From a virus: DNA of 31,653 nucleotides. Position 1 is the first letter of the stretch; each line of letters opens with the position of its first letter. Where the stretch lies: the IMG/VR virus record IMGVR_UViG_3300035703_000310, positions 1 through 31,653 of that record; one strand, given 5' to 3'. Below are positions 6,921 through 31,223 of this stretch, one piece after another. The notes under the pieces are model-generated. The model saw only the letters and a list, made by a program, of their open reading frames with translations. It did not search any database and had not been told where the DNA came from. The translations under genes and the position numbers were made by a program.

Positions 6921-7922
6921 TTAGTTGCTTGTATGCACTTTGACCAAAACGGCGGGACGCATACACATGGGCAATACGTTTGCCTGTGTGTGAATGTCAT
7001 AGCCGCGACCCATCTTTGCCTCTTGTACCTTGGCGTAGTACACCTGACCCAACGTACCCACGGTATCGTTGAAGTCTGCGGGTGCCGCCAATGTTGCAAA
7101 GGTGCTGGAAGTACCAACGGGGAAGGCGTGACCCTCATTGGCTGCGATAAAGCGGATAGTGCCGCCTGTGCCGTTTGCCTTGCCACGGTACTCCTCAAAA
7201 GTCACGCCGCCAAAGGTAAACCCGCTGCGCATATCGCCGCCAATACGCTGAGATGCCTCTTGGTAGTTGGCATAGGCTTCCTTGACCTTGGCATGGCTAA
7301 CCAGCTTGTCAAAGAACTCCTCGGATACCAATACACGAACGCCATTGCTGGTGTCGCCAAGCAAGTTATCCTCAACATAGCGCACCAACTCCATACACTT
7401 AGCGCGTACATCCGTGGTGGCTGTACCCAATACAAAATCAATGCTCTTTTGGGTAATGCCAAACTCGTTGTACAGGTTGTAAACAACGCTGGAGCCATCG
7501 GCATCCAGAATGATGCCCTTCAAAGCGCCCATACGCAGGTACTCCAGCGTAATGTCGTGCTTGGCGCGTACTGTAGCGAGCTTCTGGTTGAGCAATGCAG
7601 CGAGTGATTCGCGGGTATCGCCACCAAAGGCGCGGATACCATCCACCTCAGCGGGGTTTACGTGCTCCTCTTGAATCAGGCGGGGCACACGGAAGGTGCG
7701 AACACGGCGCTTGCCGCCTTGCCCTACTGTACCTGCGCCACCGAATGCTTCGGTAGGTATCAGGGCGAGTGAGCCGTTTTGCTCCTCAATGGCAATGTCG
7801 CGGGTCATTACGCCGCGCACTGGCATCAAGCCAAGCTGGTTGATGCGTCCGTAGGTGTTAGGGACGATATTTATAGCCGCCGCAATCTCGGTTTGGCTAA
7901 AGGCGTTTGCAATAGTCAACAT
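6921..7922 (-). CDS. Major capsid protein (lambda gpE family)
   Basis: A 333-residue protein of the gpE-type major capsid family: N-terminal INQLGLMPVRGVMTRDIAIEE, then RVRTFRVPRLIQEEHVNPAEV, a glycine-rich middle, and the C-terminal GRGYDIHTQANVLPMCMRPAVLVKV, which is a hallmark of the family. Length is typical (lambda E is 341). It forms the icosahedral shell and is preceded by its decoration protein. Other Mu-like genes here are paired with this lambda-type shell, a mosaic seen in several prophages. Confidence 0.95.
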   Translation of the reverse strand: MLTIANAFSQTEIAAAINIVPNTYGRINQLGLMPVRGVMTRDIAIEEQNGSLALIPTEAFGGAGTVGQGGKRRVRTFRVPRLIQEEHVNPAEVDGIRAFGGDTRESLAALLNQKLATVRAKHDITLEYLRMGALKGIILDADGSSVVYNLYNEFGITQKSIDFVLGTATTDVRAKCMELVRYVEDNLLGDTSNGVRVLVSEEFFDKLVSHAKVKEAYANYQEASQRIGGDMRSGFTFGGVTFEEYRGKANGTGGTIRFIAANEGHAFPVGTSSTFATLAAPADFNDTVGTLGQVYYAKVQEAKMGRGYDIHTQANVLPMCMRPAVLVKVHTSN

Positions 7923-16491: not shown

Positions 16492-16946
16492 GCTGCCTCC
16501 AACTCAATATGCAAGGCATTACGCGCCATCGCTAGGGTGGTTTGGTTCAGCTTCTCGCCGCCATTGAATCGCTGGATGATTAGCCGCGCCCATTCCCGCC
16601 CATCGGTGCGGGGTGCTGTTTTGGCGTTTGCAGCCAATGGTGCTAACTTCGCCAGTTCAGCCTTCACGCGCTCAGGGTCAGCCTTTGGCTCTGGCAATGC
16701 AGGCTTAGGCGCTGCTGGCGCTTGCTGGCACAATGCCTTGAACTGGATAAGGTTAGGGCAACGCTCCGGCAGGTTTTCCAATGCCCAAGCCACCGAATGC
16801 AGGTTGTTAGCGTAGCCACCAAGCTCACTCGCCCAGAACGATTTAACGGTGTTTGCATCCAAACCCTCCCACTGGCGCACCCATGCAGCGCCGTAGGTCA
16901 TAGCAAGCCGCCCAAATAAGCGGTCAATGGCAGGCAATGGCAACAT
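16488..16946 (-). CDS. Replication protein P-like
   Basis: A 152-residue protein: PAIDRLFGRLAMTYGAAWVRQW, then SVAWALENLPERCPNLIQFKALCQQAP, the segment shared by phage replication proteins of the lambda P type. A proline-rich linker and a C-terminal helix follow. It overlaps the end of the DUF1376 gene, as P follows O in lambda, which suggests a helicase-loading role. There is no ATPase motif, so it would recruit the host DnaB rather than act as a helicase. Confidence 0.65.
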   Translation of the reverse strand: MLPLPAIDRLFGRLAMTYGAAWVRQWEGLDANTVKSFWASELGGYANNLHSVAWALENLPERCPNLIQFKALCQQAPAAPKPALPEPKADPERVKAELAKLAPLAANAKTAPRTDGREWARLIIQRFNGGEKLNQTTLAMARNALHIELEAA

Positions 16947-17769
16947 GGTTTACCTCCAAGTCGAAGATTTCATACACATTCGAGCTTCGCGCCGCTACGG
17001 TTGGCGCAAACTCAGCCATTCGGTTTGCCTTCACCCGCGCATCACGCTCTGCGAAACTCTCGGCAATCGGCTGGCGCTTTAGCTGCTTGTTTGCCAGCCA
17101 CTCGGATTTAAAGCCTGCCCAACCAAGCTCACAGCACATACGCAGCCCTGCGTCCAGCGATAAGCCTGCCTGCTGCATTTCGCGCTCAAGCCCCGCCATC
17201 GCGGTTTCTGTCAGCGGCAGTCGTTTGGTTTTCCGCAGAATCAAAAAATCATCCCAAACCTTCAAATCAACATCGGCGGGTTTGGATACACACGCTGCGC
17301 TTTTGCGCTGCGCTGTATTCTTTGTATTTATTGGTTCTTGGTTCTTGGTTAATGGTTCTTGGTTCTTGGTTAGGGTTATTTCTGGAAACCCACAATTAAC
17401 CGTCTGGGTTTTTTCTGGGTTTTCTGCTGTAACCGTTTGGGTTTCTTTTCTTGGTCTGCCACCCTTGCTACCAACAATTCTGTTGTTTTCCGCTTTTTGA
17501 TGGTAGGCTGCAATCTCAGCATCGCAGCGTGTGTGTACCCAACCGCTTGCACCCAAAACAAAGAACTCTTGCAGCACTACCTCAACCGCCTGCACTTCTT
17601 CGGGTGTACGTGCGCCAGCCTTACGTGCCGCCGCCTTAATGTCTGCTGGCAATGGCTGCTCACTGGTGTAGTAAAGGTCAAGCAACAGGCGATATGCCCC
17701 ATGCTCAATGATGTTTAAATGGCGCGTTGCTGCTGCATAGTCGCCAATGTTGAACTTGTAATAATTCAC
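16924..17769 (-). CDS. DUF1376 replication initiator-like protein
   Basis: A 281-residue protein. Residues 1-105 match DUF1376: YYKFNIGDYAAATRHLNIIEHGAYRLLLDLYY, ADIKAAARKAGA, WVHTRCDAEIAAYHQKAENNR. A basic linker (SKGGRPRK) and a repeat-encoded stretch (LTKNQEP twice) follow, then a C-terminal domain with LKVWDDFLILRKTKR. The start codon is GTG at 17769, with AAGGA seven bases upstream. The gene occupies the position of lambda O, and the repeats within it may be the origin. The role as initiator is inferred from position and family context. Confidence 0.75.
   Translation of the reverse strand: MNYYKFNIGDYAAATRHLNIIEHGAYRLLLDLYYTSEQPLPADIKAAARKAGARTPEEVQAVEVVLQEFFVLGASGWVHTRCDAEIAAYHQKAENNRIVGSKGGRPRKETQTVTAENPEKTQTVNCGFPEITLTKNQEPLTKNQEPINTKNTAQRKSAACVSKPADVDLKVWDDFLILRKTKRLPLTETAMAGLEREMQQAGLSLDAGLRMCCELGWAGFKSEWLANKQLKRQPIAESFAERDARVKANRMAEFAPTVAARSSNVYEIFDLEVNHVAIACH
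17332..17372. repeat. 20-bp direct repeats, candidate origin iterons
   Basis: A 20-bp unit (TGGTTCTTGGTTCTTGGTTA) occurs twice, at 17332-17351 and 17353-17372, each itself built of GGTTCTT steps. It lies in the linker of the DUF1376 gene. Downstream, 17403-17455 has three CTGGGTTT or TTGGGTTT blocks in T-rich DNA. Iterons next to an easily melted tract inside the initiator gene resemble lambda ori within O. Confidence 0.5.
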
Positions 17770-18847: not shown

Positions 18848-19027
18848 TTATGCAACTCCCTTGAGCTTCTTCTTGGTTGCTGTGTACTTGAGCGTCAAGG
18901 CAACATCCCACGGCTTTGGCAATCCACGTTTGCGCCAGTTGCTAACCACGTTTTGTTTGATTCCGAGCGTTTTCGCAAGGGCATTTACGCCCCCTTCGGT
19001 TTTGATTGCGATTTCCAAAATATTCAT
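18848..19027 (-). CDS. Cro-like helix-turn-helix repressor
   Basis: From the ATG at 19027 the product is 59 residues: MNILEIAIKTEGGVNALAKTLGIKQNVVSNWRKRG in outline, a helix-turn-helix of the YdaS/Cro type at residues 13-33, with a basic tail. The longer frame starting at 19066 would begin upstream of the promoter and is rejected. The predicted transcript starts at about 19028, making the mRNA nearly leaderless. It would oppose the S24 repressor and commit to lytic growth. Confidence 0.82.
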   Translation of the reverse strand: MNILEIAIKTEGGVNALAKTLGIKQNVVSNWRKRGLPKPWDVALTLKYTATKKKLKGVA

Positions 19028-19034
19028 GCCGCGA

Positions 19035-19062
19035 ATTTTATCACGTTCGTGAGTAATGTCAA
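19035..19062 (-). promoter_or_regulatory. pR-like early promoter
   Basis: On the minus strand TTGACA (19062-19057), a 16-bp spacer and TAAAAT (19040-19035) form a strong sigma70 promoter driving the Cro-like gene and, presumably, the replication and late genes. Operator copies cover both the -10 and the -35. Confidence 0.88.
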
Positions 19063-19075
19063 TCACGTTTGTTAT
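19039..19075. promoter_or_regulatory. Operator pair between cro-like and repressor genes (OR-like)
   Basis: Two 15-bp sites: TATCACGTTCGTGAG (19039-19053), nearly a perfect palindrome around TCACG-TT-CGTGA, and AATCACGTTTGTTAT (19061-19075), centres 22 bp apart. The same motif recurs at 22188-22227. They would be bound by the S24 repressor and the Cro-like protein. Confidence 0.75.
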
Positions 19076-19092
19076 GTCATCATCAAAAAATT

Positions 19093-19758
19093 ATGAAAAC
19101 AATTGCAGAACGCTTAAAAATTAGCCGCGAAGCTAAAGGCTGGTCACAAGCTCAGTTGGCTATTGCCGCCGGTGTAAGCACGGGAACAATTGGCAATATT
19201 GAATCTGGCGCACGACAATCAAAAGGTAGCCTTCCGCAAATTGCCGAGGCTTTAGGCTGTTCAGGAAAATGGCTTGCTACAGGCATTGGTGAAATGCATC
19301 CACCGGCACTACCTCAAGAAATAAATCTTGAAAACAATCCTGATTACCCTGCTATCCGTCGTGTGCGATTCAAAATATCGGCGGGCGCATCCGGCTTTGG
19401 TGTTGATTATTCAGACGATGACGCTGCACCGATAGTTTTTCAGCGGGTTTGGTATGAACGTAGATCGTTGAAACCAGAGAAACTTTTTGCCATCAAAGTC
19501 AGAAATAGCAGTATGGAGCCGGGTCTATACGATAGTGATACGGTTGTGGTTAATACCGCAAGCACTACACCAAGGGACGGGATTGTGTTTGCTGTGAACT
19601 ATGAGGGTGAGCTTGTTATTAAGCGCCTGTTGCGTGATGCAGGCGCATGGTGGCTATGTAGCGATAACCCTGACCAGCACAAATACCCTCGCAAGCGCAT
19701 GTCTGATGAGTGCTTCATCATTGGTGAAATCGTACACAAACAGTCCGAGCGCATTTAG
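19093..19758 (+). CDS. CI-type repressor with S24 self-cleavage domain
   Basis: From MKTIAERLKISREAKGW the protein has 221 residues. Residues 5-60 are a helix-turn-helix (WSQAQLAIAAGVSTGTIGNIE). The C-terminal LexA-like domain shows the Ala97-Gly98 cleavage site (KISAGASG), catalytic Ser140 (NSSMEPG) and Lys177 (GELVIKRL), with the same 37-residue spacing as LexA. DNA damage should therefore trigger RecA-aided self-cleavage and induction. The start at 19093 is chosen for homology, since the frame from 19069 adds unrelated residues. No ribosome-binding site is visible before the ATG. The two genes after it probably share its transcript. Confidence 0.94.
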   Translation: MKTIAERLKISREAKGWSQAQLAIAAGVSTGTIGNIESGARQSKGSLPQIAEALGCSGKWLATGIGEMHPPALPQEINLENNPDYPAIRRVRFKISAGASGFGVDYSDDDAAPIVFQRVWYERRSLKPEKLFAIKVRNSSMEPGLYDSDTVVVNTASTTPRDGIVFAVNYEGELVIKRLLRDAGAWWLCSDNPDQHKYPRKRMSDECFIIGEIVHKQSERI

Positions 19759-19779
19759 GCAAAAGATTTTGTAAAACAC

Positions 19780-20511
19780 ATGATTCAAACCAGTTTTCTT
19801 AAAGTTATTGTAACAAGTGAGATTGCCAGTCCTTTCGAAGAAACCAAAGCTCTTAAAATAATTAGCAAATGTGATGATAACTACGAATACGCCACCAAGC
19901 GATTAATTGACGGCGCAAAAATTCCAATCAGTGAATGGGTTGGTTATCATTTGTGGAGGGCATGTGGCTTACCCACTCCAGAGTTTGCCATCTTACATTA
20001 CACAGATCAGCGTCCACCAGCATTTGGTTCACGTATTGAGGTTGCCTACAGCGAGTCCCCTAAAGAAGACAACGTAAGGATTGCAAATTTCTTTCGACCT
20101 CACCTACCAGCAATAGCAAAGATTTATCCAGTAGACGCGTTTTTGCCCAATATTGACCGTCATGGGCGAAATTTTCTTGTGCGGCACGCTATCACTACAC
20201 CTACCCTACTTAGCATAGACTATTCCCATGCTTGGGTTCAGACTGGTCTCCCATTCGGCAACACGACAAGACTCGAAAAAAGTAACACCCAGAAATGGTG
20301 GAAACACTTTCAAGGTAGAATGAACGCAAAAGTAGACTTTAGTGCTCTCGAAAAAATTGAGAATTTATCGGATGATTGGTTAAGTATAGTCATAACCTCT
20401 GCACCCGAGGAATGGATCAAAAGTCTTAATATTGATTTAATTGACGAATTCTGGAGAAACAACAGAGTTTCCAGAATACAGTTTGCAAAAGACTGGATTA
20501 CGAGATCATGA
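19780..20511 (+). CDS. HipA-like kinase (HipA_2 type)
   Basis: A 243-residue protein of the short HipA-like kinase family. VGYHLWRACGLPTPEFAIL (53-72) is the usual N-lobe helix and turn. YPVDAFLPNIDRHGRNFLV carries the catalytic loop (Asp126, Asn131), and LLSIDYSHAW the metal-binding Asp147. No HipB-type antitoxin is adjacent; instead the gene overlaps a DUF3037-like gene by ATGA. It lies 21 bp after the repressor gene with no promoter between, so it should be expressed in the lysogen. Possible roles are kinase toxin, defence against other phages, or lysogenic conversion; target unknown. Base composition is more AT-rich than the flanking phage genes. Confidence 0.82.
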   Translation: MIQTSFLKVIVTSEIASPFEETKALKIISKCDDNYEYATKRLIDGAKIPISEWVGYHLWRACGLPTPEFAILHYTDQRPPAFGSRIEVAYSESPKEDNVRIANFFRPHLPAIAKIYPVDAFLPNIDRHGRNFLVRHAITTPTLLSIDYSHAWVQTGLPFGNTTRLEKSNTQKWWKHFQGRMNAKVDFSALEKIENLSDDWLSIVITSAPEEWIKSLNIDLIDEFWRNNRVSRIQFAKDWITRS

Positions 20512-21338
20512 AAAATGTAGCTAAAACGTATGTGATTGAGTACGTACCATACGCCCACCGCAACGAAAGATGTGCAGTTGGTCTATTGTGTGTTACCGCA
20601 AATCACTCGTGCACCATTCATGTAGCAAATCAACTAAGGAAAGCAAAAACTATCAACCCAAGTTGTGATGTGGAGTCATTACGCGCAGCGCTTGCCTCCA
20701 TTGCAGTTGAATTATCCCAAGATATTGATCTATTAGAACTTTATCAATCAGGCTTCTCTGGCATCAAGATTGCGTCCGATGCTGGATCAATTAGTTACGC
20801 CAATCAGGATGAATTGGATGAAGGTGTCAAATGGTCTATGGCAGTTGCAGTTGAACCAATTAAGGCAAAACCAACTAGGGAGCGCCCTAGCATTTCTCGC
20901 TTATTCATAGATATCAAAAACTCTTTTGATGCTTACGGCTGGATGGGACACACTGGACATAGTCTATCGGATCATCGGATTATTCCAAGATATCCGCTAT
21001 TAGCCGACGAAGGTCTAACAGTTGATTTTGCACTGAAAAACGGATCATTTCACTGCCTGCAAACGGTCGATTACCGGCACAATCCCGCCCAAAAACGCAC
21101 AGAAGCAAATGCAAAACTTTTGACGCTTGGCATGGCTCAACATCTGACCGGTCATACGACTCAAAAATACACACTCATTGCTGGCACCGACTCCCCCGAA
21201 TCAAAAACAGGTTTGAAACTAGCCGAACGTGTAAGTAACGATGTTTTTGTTCACGAAAGTGCTGAGGATATGAATCGGTTACTTGACATCATTGCCAAAG
21301 CTATGGGTCAAGACGGCTTTGAAAAGTTAACCACATAG
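20508..21338 (+). CDS. DUF3037-like partner of HipA-like kinase
   Basis: A 276-residue protein. The N-terminus KTYVIEYVPYAHRNERCAVGLLCV resembles DUF3037, a domain found next to or fused to HipA_2 kinases. The C-terminal half has an alpha/beta pattern ending in an amphipathic helix. Four-base overlap with the kinase gene argues for a two-protein module. There is no helix-turn-helix, so it does not look like a HipB-like repressor. Function is unknown; the pairing is recognised from known gene neighbourhoods. Confidence 0.72.
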   Translation: MKNVAKTYVIEYVPYAHRNERCAVGLLCVTANHSCTIHVANQLRKAKTINPSCDVESLRAALASIAVELSQDIDLLELYQSGFSGIKIASDAGSISYANQDELDEGVKWSMAVAVEPIKAKPTRERPSISRLFIDIKNSFDAYGWMGHTGHSLSDHRIIPRYPLLADEGLTVDFALKNGSFHCLQTVDYRHNPAQKRTEANAKLLTLGMAQHLTGHTTQKYTLIAGTDSPESKTGLKLAERVSNDVFVHESAEDMNRLLDIIAKAMGQDGFEKLTT

Positions 21339-21339
21339 A

Positions 21340-21375
21340 ATTCGTTTCGCATCTTAATTATGATACGAAACGAAT
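21340..21375. terminator. Hairpin between convergent genes, probable bidirectional terminator
   Basis: A 14-bp inverted repeat with one mismatch (ATTCGTTTCGCATC, eight-base loop, GATACGAAACGAAT) sits between the convergent DUF3037-like and higA genes. It could end both transcripts, though neither side has the usual long T-run, so a factor-binding or recombination role is possible. Confidence 0.5.
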
Positions 21376-21384
21376 GCAGCGCGG

Positions 21385-21795
21385 CTAAACCGTCAAAGCT
21401 TCCATAGGCACCCCAAACCGCTGTGCCAATGCTTTGACCTGACGCAAATTAAGGTTGCGTCTGCCGTGTAGCACGTCAGATACCACGCTTTGCGCGCCTA
21501 TTTCGGGCAAATCAGACTGGCGCAAGCCGTGTTGCTCCATTAAAAAAGCCAACCGTGTAGCGGGGGTGCTGTTGTCTGGCCAAGGGTAGGCAGCAGCCTC
21601 GTATTCTCTAATGCGGTCGGCCACCAAATTGACCAGTGTAAAAATGGGGTGGTGCTGGTCTGCGCTAAATCGCTCAAAGCACTCATCCACAAAGGCCAGC
21701 AGCTCGGCATGGTGGGCATCGTCACGCACGGGTGCAGCCAAGCCCAAGGCGGAATGCACCACATTCCAAGTATCGAGTATGTTGCTTATATTCAT
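21385..21795 (-). CDS. higA: HigA family antitoxin
   Basis: A 136-residue antitoxin. The C-terminal helix-turn-helix is RLAFLMEQHGLRQSDLPEIGAQSVVSDVLHGRRNLNLRQVKAL in outline, and the N-terminal region ADRIREYEAAAYPWPDNSTP is the HigB-binding part typical of this subgroup. The start at 21795 is preferred over 21801 because AAGGAG lies seven bases before it and because it makes an ATGA overlap with higB. It should neutralise HigB and repress the operon through the palindrome at 22091-22111. Confidence 0.93.
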   Translation of the reverse strand: MNISNILDTWNVVHSALGLAAPVRDDAHHAELLAFVDECFERFSADQHHPIFTLVNLVADRIREYEAAAYPWPDNSTPATRLAFLMEQHGLRQSDLPEIGAQSVVSDVLHGRRNLNLRQVKALAQRFGVPMEALTV

Positions 21796-22082
21796 TTCCA
21801 TGCTCCTTTGTCGTATTCGCCATGCGTTAACACGGCTTTAACCCATACCAGTCCCGGGTGAAAGGCAATACCCGCAATCAGCCGGTACTTGTTGCCGCCA
21901 ATATTAAAAACATAACGCTCGCCCACCTTGTCCACCGATGCAAACGTGGCCTTGAGTTGCGCAAAGTTTGCAAAGCTGCCCGCCTCTATTAACCGCCTGA
22001 AGTCCTGCAACGGCTGATCGGCATCGGGATACTTTGCACCAAACTCGCGCAGTGTCTTGTTGGATATGAGCTTCATAGACAT
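21792..22082 (-). CDS. higB: HigB family toxin (mRNA interferase)
   Basis: A 96-residue RelE-superfamily toxin: MKLISNKTLREFGAKYP start, FANFAQLKATFASVDKVG, then the RYVFNIGGNKYRLIAGIAF core and VWVKAVLTHGEYDKG end, all typical of the HigB family that cuts ribosome-bound mRNA. The predicted transcript starts at 22082, exactly the A of the ATG used here; ATG at 22076 is an alternative. The frame from 22100 would need translation of the promoter. In this operon the toxin gene precedes the antitoxin gene, as usual for HigBA. Confidence 0.93.
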   Translation of the reverse strand: MSMKLISNKTLREFGAKYPDADQPLQDFRRLIEAGSFANFAQLKATFASVDKVGERYVFNIGGNKYRLIAGIAFHPGLVWVKAVLTHGEYDKGAWK

Positions 22083-22088
22083 GAATGG

Positions 22089-22111
22089 ATTATATAGCAA
22101 ACTGCTATATA
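22089..22111 (-). promoter_or_regulatory. higBA promoter and operator
   Basis: A consensus TATAAT -10 (22094-22089, minus strand) overlaps a perfect 9-bp inverted repeat, TATATAGCA-AAC-TGCTATATA (22091-22111). The -35 is weak. The palindrome is the natural site for HigA autorepression. Confidence 0.82.
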
Positions 22112-22187: not shown

Positions 22188-22231
22188 TATCACATTTGTG
22201 TGTGAATTATTACTCACGTATGTGATAATAC
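22188..22231 (+). promoter_or_regulatory. pL-like early promoter with operator pair (OL-like)
   Basis: Operators TATCACATTTGTGTG (22188-22202) and CTCACGTATGTGATA (22213-22227) match the pair at 19039-19075. The -10 is GATAAT (22224-22229) or TAATAC (22226-22231) with a poor -35. The block ATTACTCACGNNNGTGATAA is shared almost exactly with the pR-like promoter read on its own strand. It would drive the plus-strand recombination operon and be shut off by the S24 repressor. Confidence 0.75.
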
Positions 22232-30103: not shown

Positions 30104-30370
30104 ATGCCATACGCAAAACCCAACAAAAACCAAGCGAATCTTTTTGGCGATGGCGAGGCATGGCGCGAGGAATGGGCAGGAATGCCAGCGTTTGAGCAGC
30201 AAAACCTTCTGCCCGAATACTCGGTGCGGGTCAACTTCGCCAGCTTCGAGGATATGCAGAAGTTTGCCCACTACATCGGGCAAAAGCTAACACCCACCAC
30301 CGCCTCCATCTGGTATCCGCAACAGCAAAAGCTAAACCAAGCAGGGATGAAGTATGCCGATGAAACCTAA
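30104..30370 (+). CDS. Small protein associated with the TAGT glycosyltransferase
   Basis: An 88-residue protein: NQANLFGDGEAWREEWAGMP, then YSVRVNFASFEDMQKFAHYIGQKLTPTTASIWYP. I recall similar small proteins next to phage DNA-modification genes, and it overlaps the glycosyltransferase gene here by 17 bases. GGGGA precedes the ATG. It probably works with the next gene, but no activity can be read from the sequence. Confidence 0.7.
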   Translation: MPYAKPNKNQANLFGDGEAWREEWAGMPAFEQQNLLPEYSVRVNFASFEDMQKFAHYIGQKLTPTTASIWYPQQQKLNQAGMKYADET

Positions 30371-31223
30371 GTACCCCATCTACATAGTATCCAAGGGCAG
30401 GCATGAAAAGCGCCTAACCGCCGATGCACTAGATGAAATGCAAACGCCCTACCACTTTATTGTTGAGCAGGACGAGGTAGATAAGTATGCAAGCAAGGTA
30501 GGCGCAAAAAAGGTGCTGGCGCTGCCAACCGAATACCTAAAGGAATACAACCCCTGCGATAACTTGGGCGACACCAAAAGCAAGGGGCCGGGCGCAGCGC
30601 GTAACTTCGCTTGGCAACACGCGCAAGATGCAGGCTATAAACGCCATTGGGTACTTGATGACAACATAGACGGGTTTTACAGGCTAAACCTGAACATGAA
30701 AATCAAGTGCGTAAGCCCTGCAATATTCCGCGCAGCAGAGGACTTTATAGACCGCTACACCAACGTACCGCTGGCAGGCTTTAACTATGCCATGTTTGCG
30801 AAGCGCAAAGATACGCCACCGCCGTTTGTACTAAACACCCGTATCTATTCCTGCCTTCTAATTGAAAACGCCCTGCCCTACCGATGGGAGGGGCGCTACA
30901 ACGAGGATACGCACCTAAGCCTACGGGTACTAAAAGACGGGCTTTGCACAGTGCAATTTAACGCATTTTTAGCTAACAAGGTACGGACGCAAACGATGGC
31001 AGGTGGCAATACAGATGCCTTCTACGCCAAGGAGGGGACGCTAAACAAATCGGAAATGCTAACCGAGCTACACCCTGACTGCTCAACTGTGGTCTGGAAG
31101 TTTGGCAGGTGGCATCACTACGTTAATTACAACCTATTTAAACGCAACACATTAAAACGGGTTGCAGGGCTACACATACACGAAGCCGCGAATGAATACG
31201 GCATGAAATTATTAGCAGCATAA
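30354..31223 (+). CDS. TET-associated-type glycosyltransferase (TAGT-like)
   Basis: A 289-residue GT-A-like enzyme. N-terminal YPIYIVSKGRHEKRLTADAL and PYHFIVEQDEVDKY match the nucleotide-sugar-binding start. LGDTKSKGPGAARNFAWQHA is the family signature. HWVLDDNIDGFYRLNLN contains the metal-binding DDN (102-104), and RWEGRYNEDTHLSLRVLKDG the acceptor-side acidic residues. Enzymes of this family add sugars to hydroxymethylated bases in phage DNA. No TET/JBP dioxygenase or base methylase lies in the window. Starts at 30354 or 30360. Confidence 0.82.
   Translation: MPMKPKYPIYIVSKGRHEKRLTADALDEMQTPYHFIVEQDEVDKYASKVGAKKVLALPTEYLKEYNPCDNLGDTKSKGPGAARNFAWQHAQDAGYKRHWVLDDNIDGFYRLNLNMKIKCVSPAIFRAAEDFIDRYTNVPLAGFNYAMFAKRKDTPPPFVLNTRIYSCLLIENALPYRWEGRYNEDTHLSLRVLKDGLCTVQFNAFLANKVRTQTMAGGNTDAFYAKEGTLNKSEMLTELHPDCSTVVWKFGRWHHYVNYNLFKRNTLKRVAGLHIHEAANEYGMKLLAA

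Follow-up and report, generated by a model that had tools for sequence, protein, structure and literature searches.

The window analysed here, a virus record of 31,653 bases, carries two genes directly behind a phage repressor gene, the first encoding a HipA-like kinase and the second a protein resembling DUF3037, and the question it raises is what a temperate phage gains from a pair of this kind in this position. We consider it likely that the module is HipAD toxin–antitoxin-like defence cargo of a lambda-like temperate phage, which would be expressed in the lysogen with the DUF3037 protein (here HipD) restraining the kinase until infection. By analogy with characterised relatives, the host bacterium probably owes to the module some protection against other phages.

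To the left, on the minus strand, lie the genes for the tape measure, major head, head protease, portal and large terminase proteins, and the right side encodes Bet/RecT-like and RecE-like recombination proteins, an SSB, a Rha-like regulator and HNH endonucleases; no similarity of the window to phages was found at the DNA level. The features of the region in between are collected in Table 1. On re-check the gene coordinates of the initial annotation proved exact, as did the 21-bp gap between repressor and kinase and the 4-bp overlap (ATGA) between the kinase and DUF3037 genes. The AT-richness that it had remarked upon is equally real, the GC content being 0.41 and 0.43 in the two genes of the pair compared with about 0.52 in the flanking DNA, and a comparable deficit is seen in most of the homologous loci. 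The kinase start codon, as read from the sequence, lacks a clear ribosome-binding site.

Table 1 Features of the repressor region (positions in the window)
Feature	Position	Strand	Remarks
Replication/primosomal gene	16924-17769		Left of the repressor
Cro-like HTH protein	18848-19027	-	phrog_8008 (4.9e-11), phrog_409 (7.8e-6)
Right operator (OR-like), predicted	19038-19074		TCACGTTCGTGA at 19041-19052, TCACGTTTGTTA at 19063-19074
CI-like prophage repressor	19093-19758	+	221 aa; N-terminal HTH, C-terminal S24 self-cleaving domain
Short HipA-like kinase (HipA_2)	19780-20511	+	243 aa; proposed toxin/effector
DUF3037 protein, proposed antitoxin/regulator HipD	20508-21338	+	276 aa, two domains
Hairpin	21340-21375		Separates the pair from the convergent HigBA genes; 18-nt arms, 89% complementary
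HigBA-type toxin–antitoxin pair	21385-21801, 21792-22079	-	HigB_toxin PF09907 (2.3e-25)
Left operator (OL-like), predicted	22190-22228		TCACATTTGTGT at 22190-22201, TCACGTATGTGA at 22214-22225

The first gene of the cluster had been called an S24 repressor, and this identification is borne out by the Pfam matches to Peptidase_S24 (E = 4.7e-19) and HTH_31 (9.3e-11) and by the assignment to phrog_4, transcriptional repressor (2.2e-48); Ser140 is almost invariant across the aligned regulators that precede the kinase. The divergently oriented Cro-like gene marks the immunity region. A leftward promoter (TTGACA-16-TAAAAT, 19062-19035) that agrees with the consensus at 11 of 12 bases overlaps both sites of the predicted right operator. 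The right and left operators have in common the 20-mer TTATCACRTWCGTGAGTAAT, which is absent elsewhere in the window and did not arise in 100 shuffles even when three mismatches were allowed, and the operator 12-mer with at most one mismatch is likewise confined to the two operator regions. These stricter searches are the informative ones; with two mismatches the motif is no commoner in the window than expected by chance, and a search at that level is uninformative. The combination of HTH and S24 domains with operators predicted at divergent early promoters is that of an S24 phage repressor. As read from the sequence, the repressor, the kinase–DUF3037 pair and the reversed HigBA genes all lie between the two predicted operator regions.

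This arrangement has a well-known counterpart in phage lambda, where cI is followed by rexAB, two accessory genes located between the operator regions and expressed together with the repressor, whose products constitute a sensor and a membrane channel. The window pair likewise consists of two accessory genes directly behind the repressor, and because matching predicted operators flank both sides it appears to occupy the lambda rexAB slot, even though the RexAB proteins are unrelated to the kinase–DUF3037 pair. A hairpin does follow the third gene, as the initial annotation had stated (folding energy -16.4 kcal/mol, z = -3.0); its interpretation as a canonical intrinsic terminator was ruled out because no T-run follows, and it is missing from the list returned by the terminator scan of the window. 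The reversed HigBA genes occupy the stretch from there to the left operator, so that the slot houses two toxin–antitoxin-like modules. Just 5′ of higB a perfect 9-nt inverted repeat (TATATAGCA/TGCTATATA, 22091-22111) is possibly the operator of HigA.

The kinase passes the HipA_2 profile search that had been proposed as a check (PF20613, cut-off 27 bits, score 30.2 bits; E = 3.5e-7) and also matches phrog_3162 (2e-22) and PADLOC PDC-M66A (2.4e-4). The catalytic residues noted at the outset, Asp126, Asn131 and Asp147, are correctly placed, and together with Lys40 and Glu52 they are invariant in all 16 aligned sequences. The predicted structure (pLDDT 87.1, pTM 0.86) confirms the kinase fold at the level of the model, its fold matches in the PDB comprising CtkA, PI4K, HipA and the HipA_C-domain kinase complex 7vkb; the sequence profile gives weak matches to HipT and HipA_C chains. 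The protein thereby shares the HipA-type kinase fold with the HipBA and HipBST systems. Unlike these it is short, has a DUF3037 protein as its partner and is accompanied neither by HipS nor by a small HTH antitoxin of the HipB type: the gene upstream encodes the 221-aa S24 repressor, which scores 18.3 bits against the NCBIfam HipB model with its cut-off of 79. The earlier statement that no HipB-type antitoxin is encoded with the kinase thus holds.

The partner had been described as DUF3037-like, a claim that stands for the family and falls short for the window protein on its own. Compared with PF11236 the latter reaches 19.7 bits (E = 0.001), under the cut-off of 22.6; the assignment is nevertheless supported because 18/18 aligned family members match DUF3037, the best at 1.2e-10. 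PDC-M66B matches 15 of the 18 aligned partners, and the window protein is not among the 15. The model of HipD (pLDDT 86.9, pTM 0.52) has two well-predicted halves whose mutual placement is uncertain. Its matches in the PDB are weak, none falling below E = 0.001, and include several nuclease folds; the low-scoring nuclease matches are Cdn1 (E = 1.2e-3), the small subunit of R.BspD6I, PaqCI, XisH and MUS81-EME1. Positions Asp/Glu173, Asp188, Arg190 and Lys203 are conserved. It is conceivable, if rather doubtful, that the C-terminal half of the model represents a degenerate PD-(D/E)XK-like DNA-binding infection sensor that would free the kinase upon detecting phage DNA or its processing. A phosphodiesterase was also considered for the C-terminal domain and rejected, the matches (E 0.2-0.9) being taken as chance.

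Single-sequence scans of the viral and genome collections with either the kinase or the DUF3037 protein as query returned no matches, nor did tblastn against annotated phages, and relatives were therefore gathered with alignment queries. These yielded 18 viral loci and nine loci in bacterial genomes, and plasmid searches added three on plasmids. The viral loci were picked by kinase motifs alone, DUF3037 and the repressor playing no part in the selection, and include three near-duplicates (L015, L016 and L022). In all 18 a DUF3037 gene lies directly 3′ of the kinase gene, mostly with a 4-bp overlap. The initial annotation had suggested surveying genomes for the pair next to S24 repressors, and such a repressor is indeed found directly 5′ of the kinase in 13/18 viral loci, with an HTH-like protein without S24 in three further ones; a few loci have no repressor adjoining the pair. 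The slot behind the repressor is hence preferred, not obligatory, and the arrangement of the cluster is far beyond chance and recurs in independent phages. PDC-M66A matches 13 of the 18 aligned kinases. The annotation of a phage-like plasmid from Klebsiella lists CII, Cro, S24, kinase and DUF3037 in this order, a layout that is also present in prophages of E. coli OW1E2 and ES2. The nearest relatives of the window copy are only 41-47% identical, and its branch appears to be rare in E. coli since no more than 2 of 5,426 genomes match by DNA. On the Komagataeibacter plasmid pKOB3 (L004:5950-7539) the pair adjoins a type I restriction–modification system; here the gap measures 126 bp, the kinase is shortened to 215 aa, and the pair is possibly decaying.

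Which protein, then, would hold the kinase in check? An HTH protein lies directly 5′ of the kinase in most loci, in some with gaps of only 3-21 bp, and it might be supposed that the repressor has a second role as an antitoxin of the HipB kind and that this protein, not DUF3037, restrains the kinase. The comparison of the loci speaks strongly to the contrary. Across 19 loci the distances between kinases correlate with those between DUF3037 proteins at r = 0.97 and with those between repressors at 0.43 only, and pairs that are 96-99% identical are found behind repressors sharing merely 27-46% identity. Thus, the kinases of L018, L019 and L020 are 97-99% identical while the L019 repressor is 27% identical to the other two, and L014 and L016 have kinases with 99% identity and repressors with 46%. 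Certain loci, moreover, have no adjacent repressor, and in a relative it is the loss of DUF3037 that is toxic (PMC12548924). The repressors exchange freely and the kinase diverges together with DUF3037, so that we reject the repressor as antitoxin and leave it next to no probability. Because kinase and DUF3037 co-diverge and near-identical pairs sit behind unrelated repressors, the pair is best understood as the functional unit and the repressor as its expression slot; judged by these sequence comparisons, the pair moves as a cassette.

The kind of system to which the pair belongs has already been described, under the names PDC-M66, DS-6 and HipAD. A HipA/DUF3037 pair (PADLOC PDC-M66) adjoining a retron confers defence against phage Bas51 that is abolished by deletion of the kinase and for which the retron is dispensable (PMC12548924). 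DS-6, renamed HipAD, requires a catalytic residue of its kinase, and a complex of its two proteins has been predicted (PMC13092281). PMC13092281 credits Brenes and Laub 2025 with the earlier discovery of HipAD in E. coli prophages, a location shared with the window pair. HipAD/PDC-M66 and the window have in common two genes in the same order, a HipA-like kinase with conserved catalytic residues and then DUF3037; the window differs in that its DUF3037 protein scores below the Pfam cut-off and has no PDC-M66B match of its own. DS-6B is said to carry DUF1829 (PMC13092281), whereas no match to this domain was obtained in any aligned partner, not even when the C-terminal half was searched by itself at E ≤ 10; a single weak fold match, to a viral protein, bears the name DUF1828. 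The Retron-Sda1 operon likewise combines the kinase with a DUF3037 protein, defending via the kinase, which DUF3037 neutralises (PMC12548924); its companions are a reverse transcriptase and an ncRNA, unneeded for defence, where the window has an S24 repressor. The initial suggestion that the kinase serves as a defence or toxin and is restrained by a DUF3037-like partner agrees, by analogy, with what is reported for these relatives (PMC12548924, PMC13092281).

Two further readings of the pair have to be weighed against defence. The toxicity that follows deletion of DUF3037 in a relative (PMC12548924) and the presence of HigBA as a second, adjoining toxin–antitoxin pair would suit plain stabilisation, in which the prophage is kept by post-segregational killing and effects on other phages are incidental. 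We regard this as unlikely, given that relatives show kinase-dependent phage defence, that the preferred slot behind the repressor is better explained by exclusion, and that an integrated prophage would presumably profit little from post-segregational killing. The location within the immunity region, between two predicted operators, could also indicate that the pair has nothing to do with defence and tunes lysogeny or induction of the phage itself, the kinase phosphorylating a factor of the phage or the host. This appears very improbable: the pair also occurs outside immunity regions, for instance on a Komagataeibacter plasmid, where a type I restriction system is its neighbour, and in E. coli a relative suffices by itself for defence (PMC12548924).

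Defence by HipAD would proceed as follows. In the lysogen the repressor would be made from its own promoter, and to judge from the spacing of the genes the kinase and DUF3037 genes would be read from the same transcript, the repressor providing the expression slot and not the antitoxin. To judge from the relatives, HipD would bind and restrain the HipA-like kinase until infection by a second phage releases or activates it. The activated kinase could then phosphorylate a host or phage target, whereupon growth or phage production would stop and the lysogen population be protected, kinase-dependent defence having been demonstrated for relatives. For the window copy we infer the joint expression in the lysogen, the defence itself and the activation on infection.

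The locus reveals no new kind of system; it adds to HipAD a diverged branch, carried by a lambda-like phage, and presents the pair, across independent phages, as a cassette that is exchanged in the rexAB position and follows repressors unrelated to one another. This favours regarding the slot behind cI as a regular home of exclusion systems and provides a simple rule by which further ones may be found.

Elsewhere in the window, the major capsid protein (6921-7922, minus strand) finds its best match among annotated phages in the Wolbachia phage WO protein, with 57% identity. The product of 30354-31223 (plus strand) matches phrog_842, named beta-glucosyl-HMC-alpha-glucosyltransferase (1.6e-51); in a lambda-like phage the target that this protein modifies may be DNA or a surface structure.
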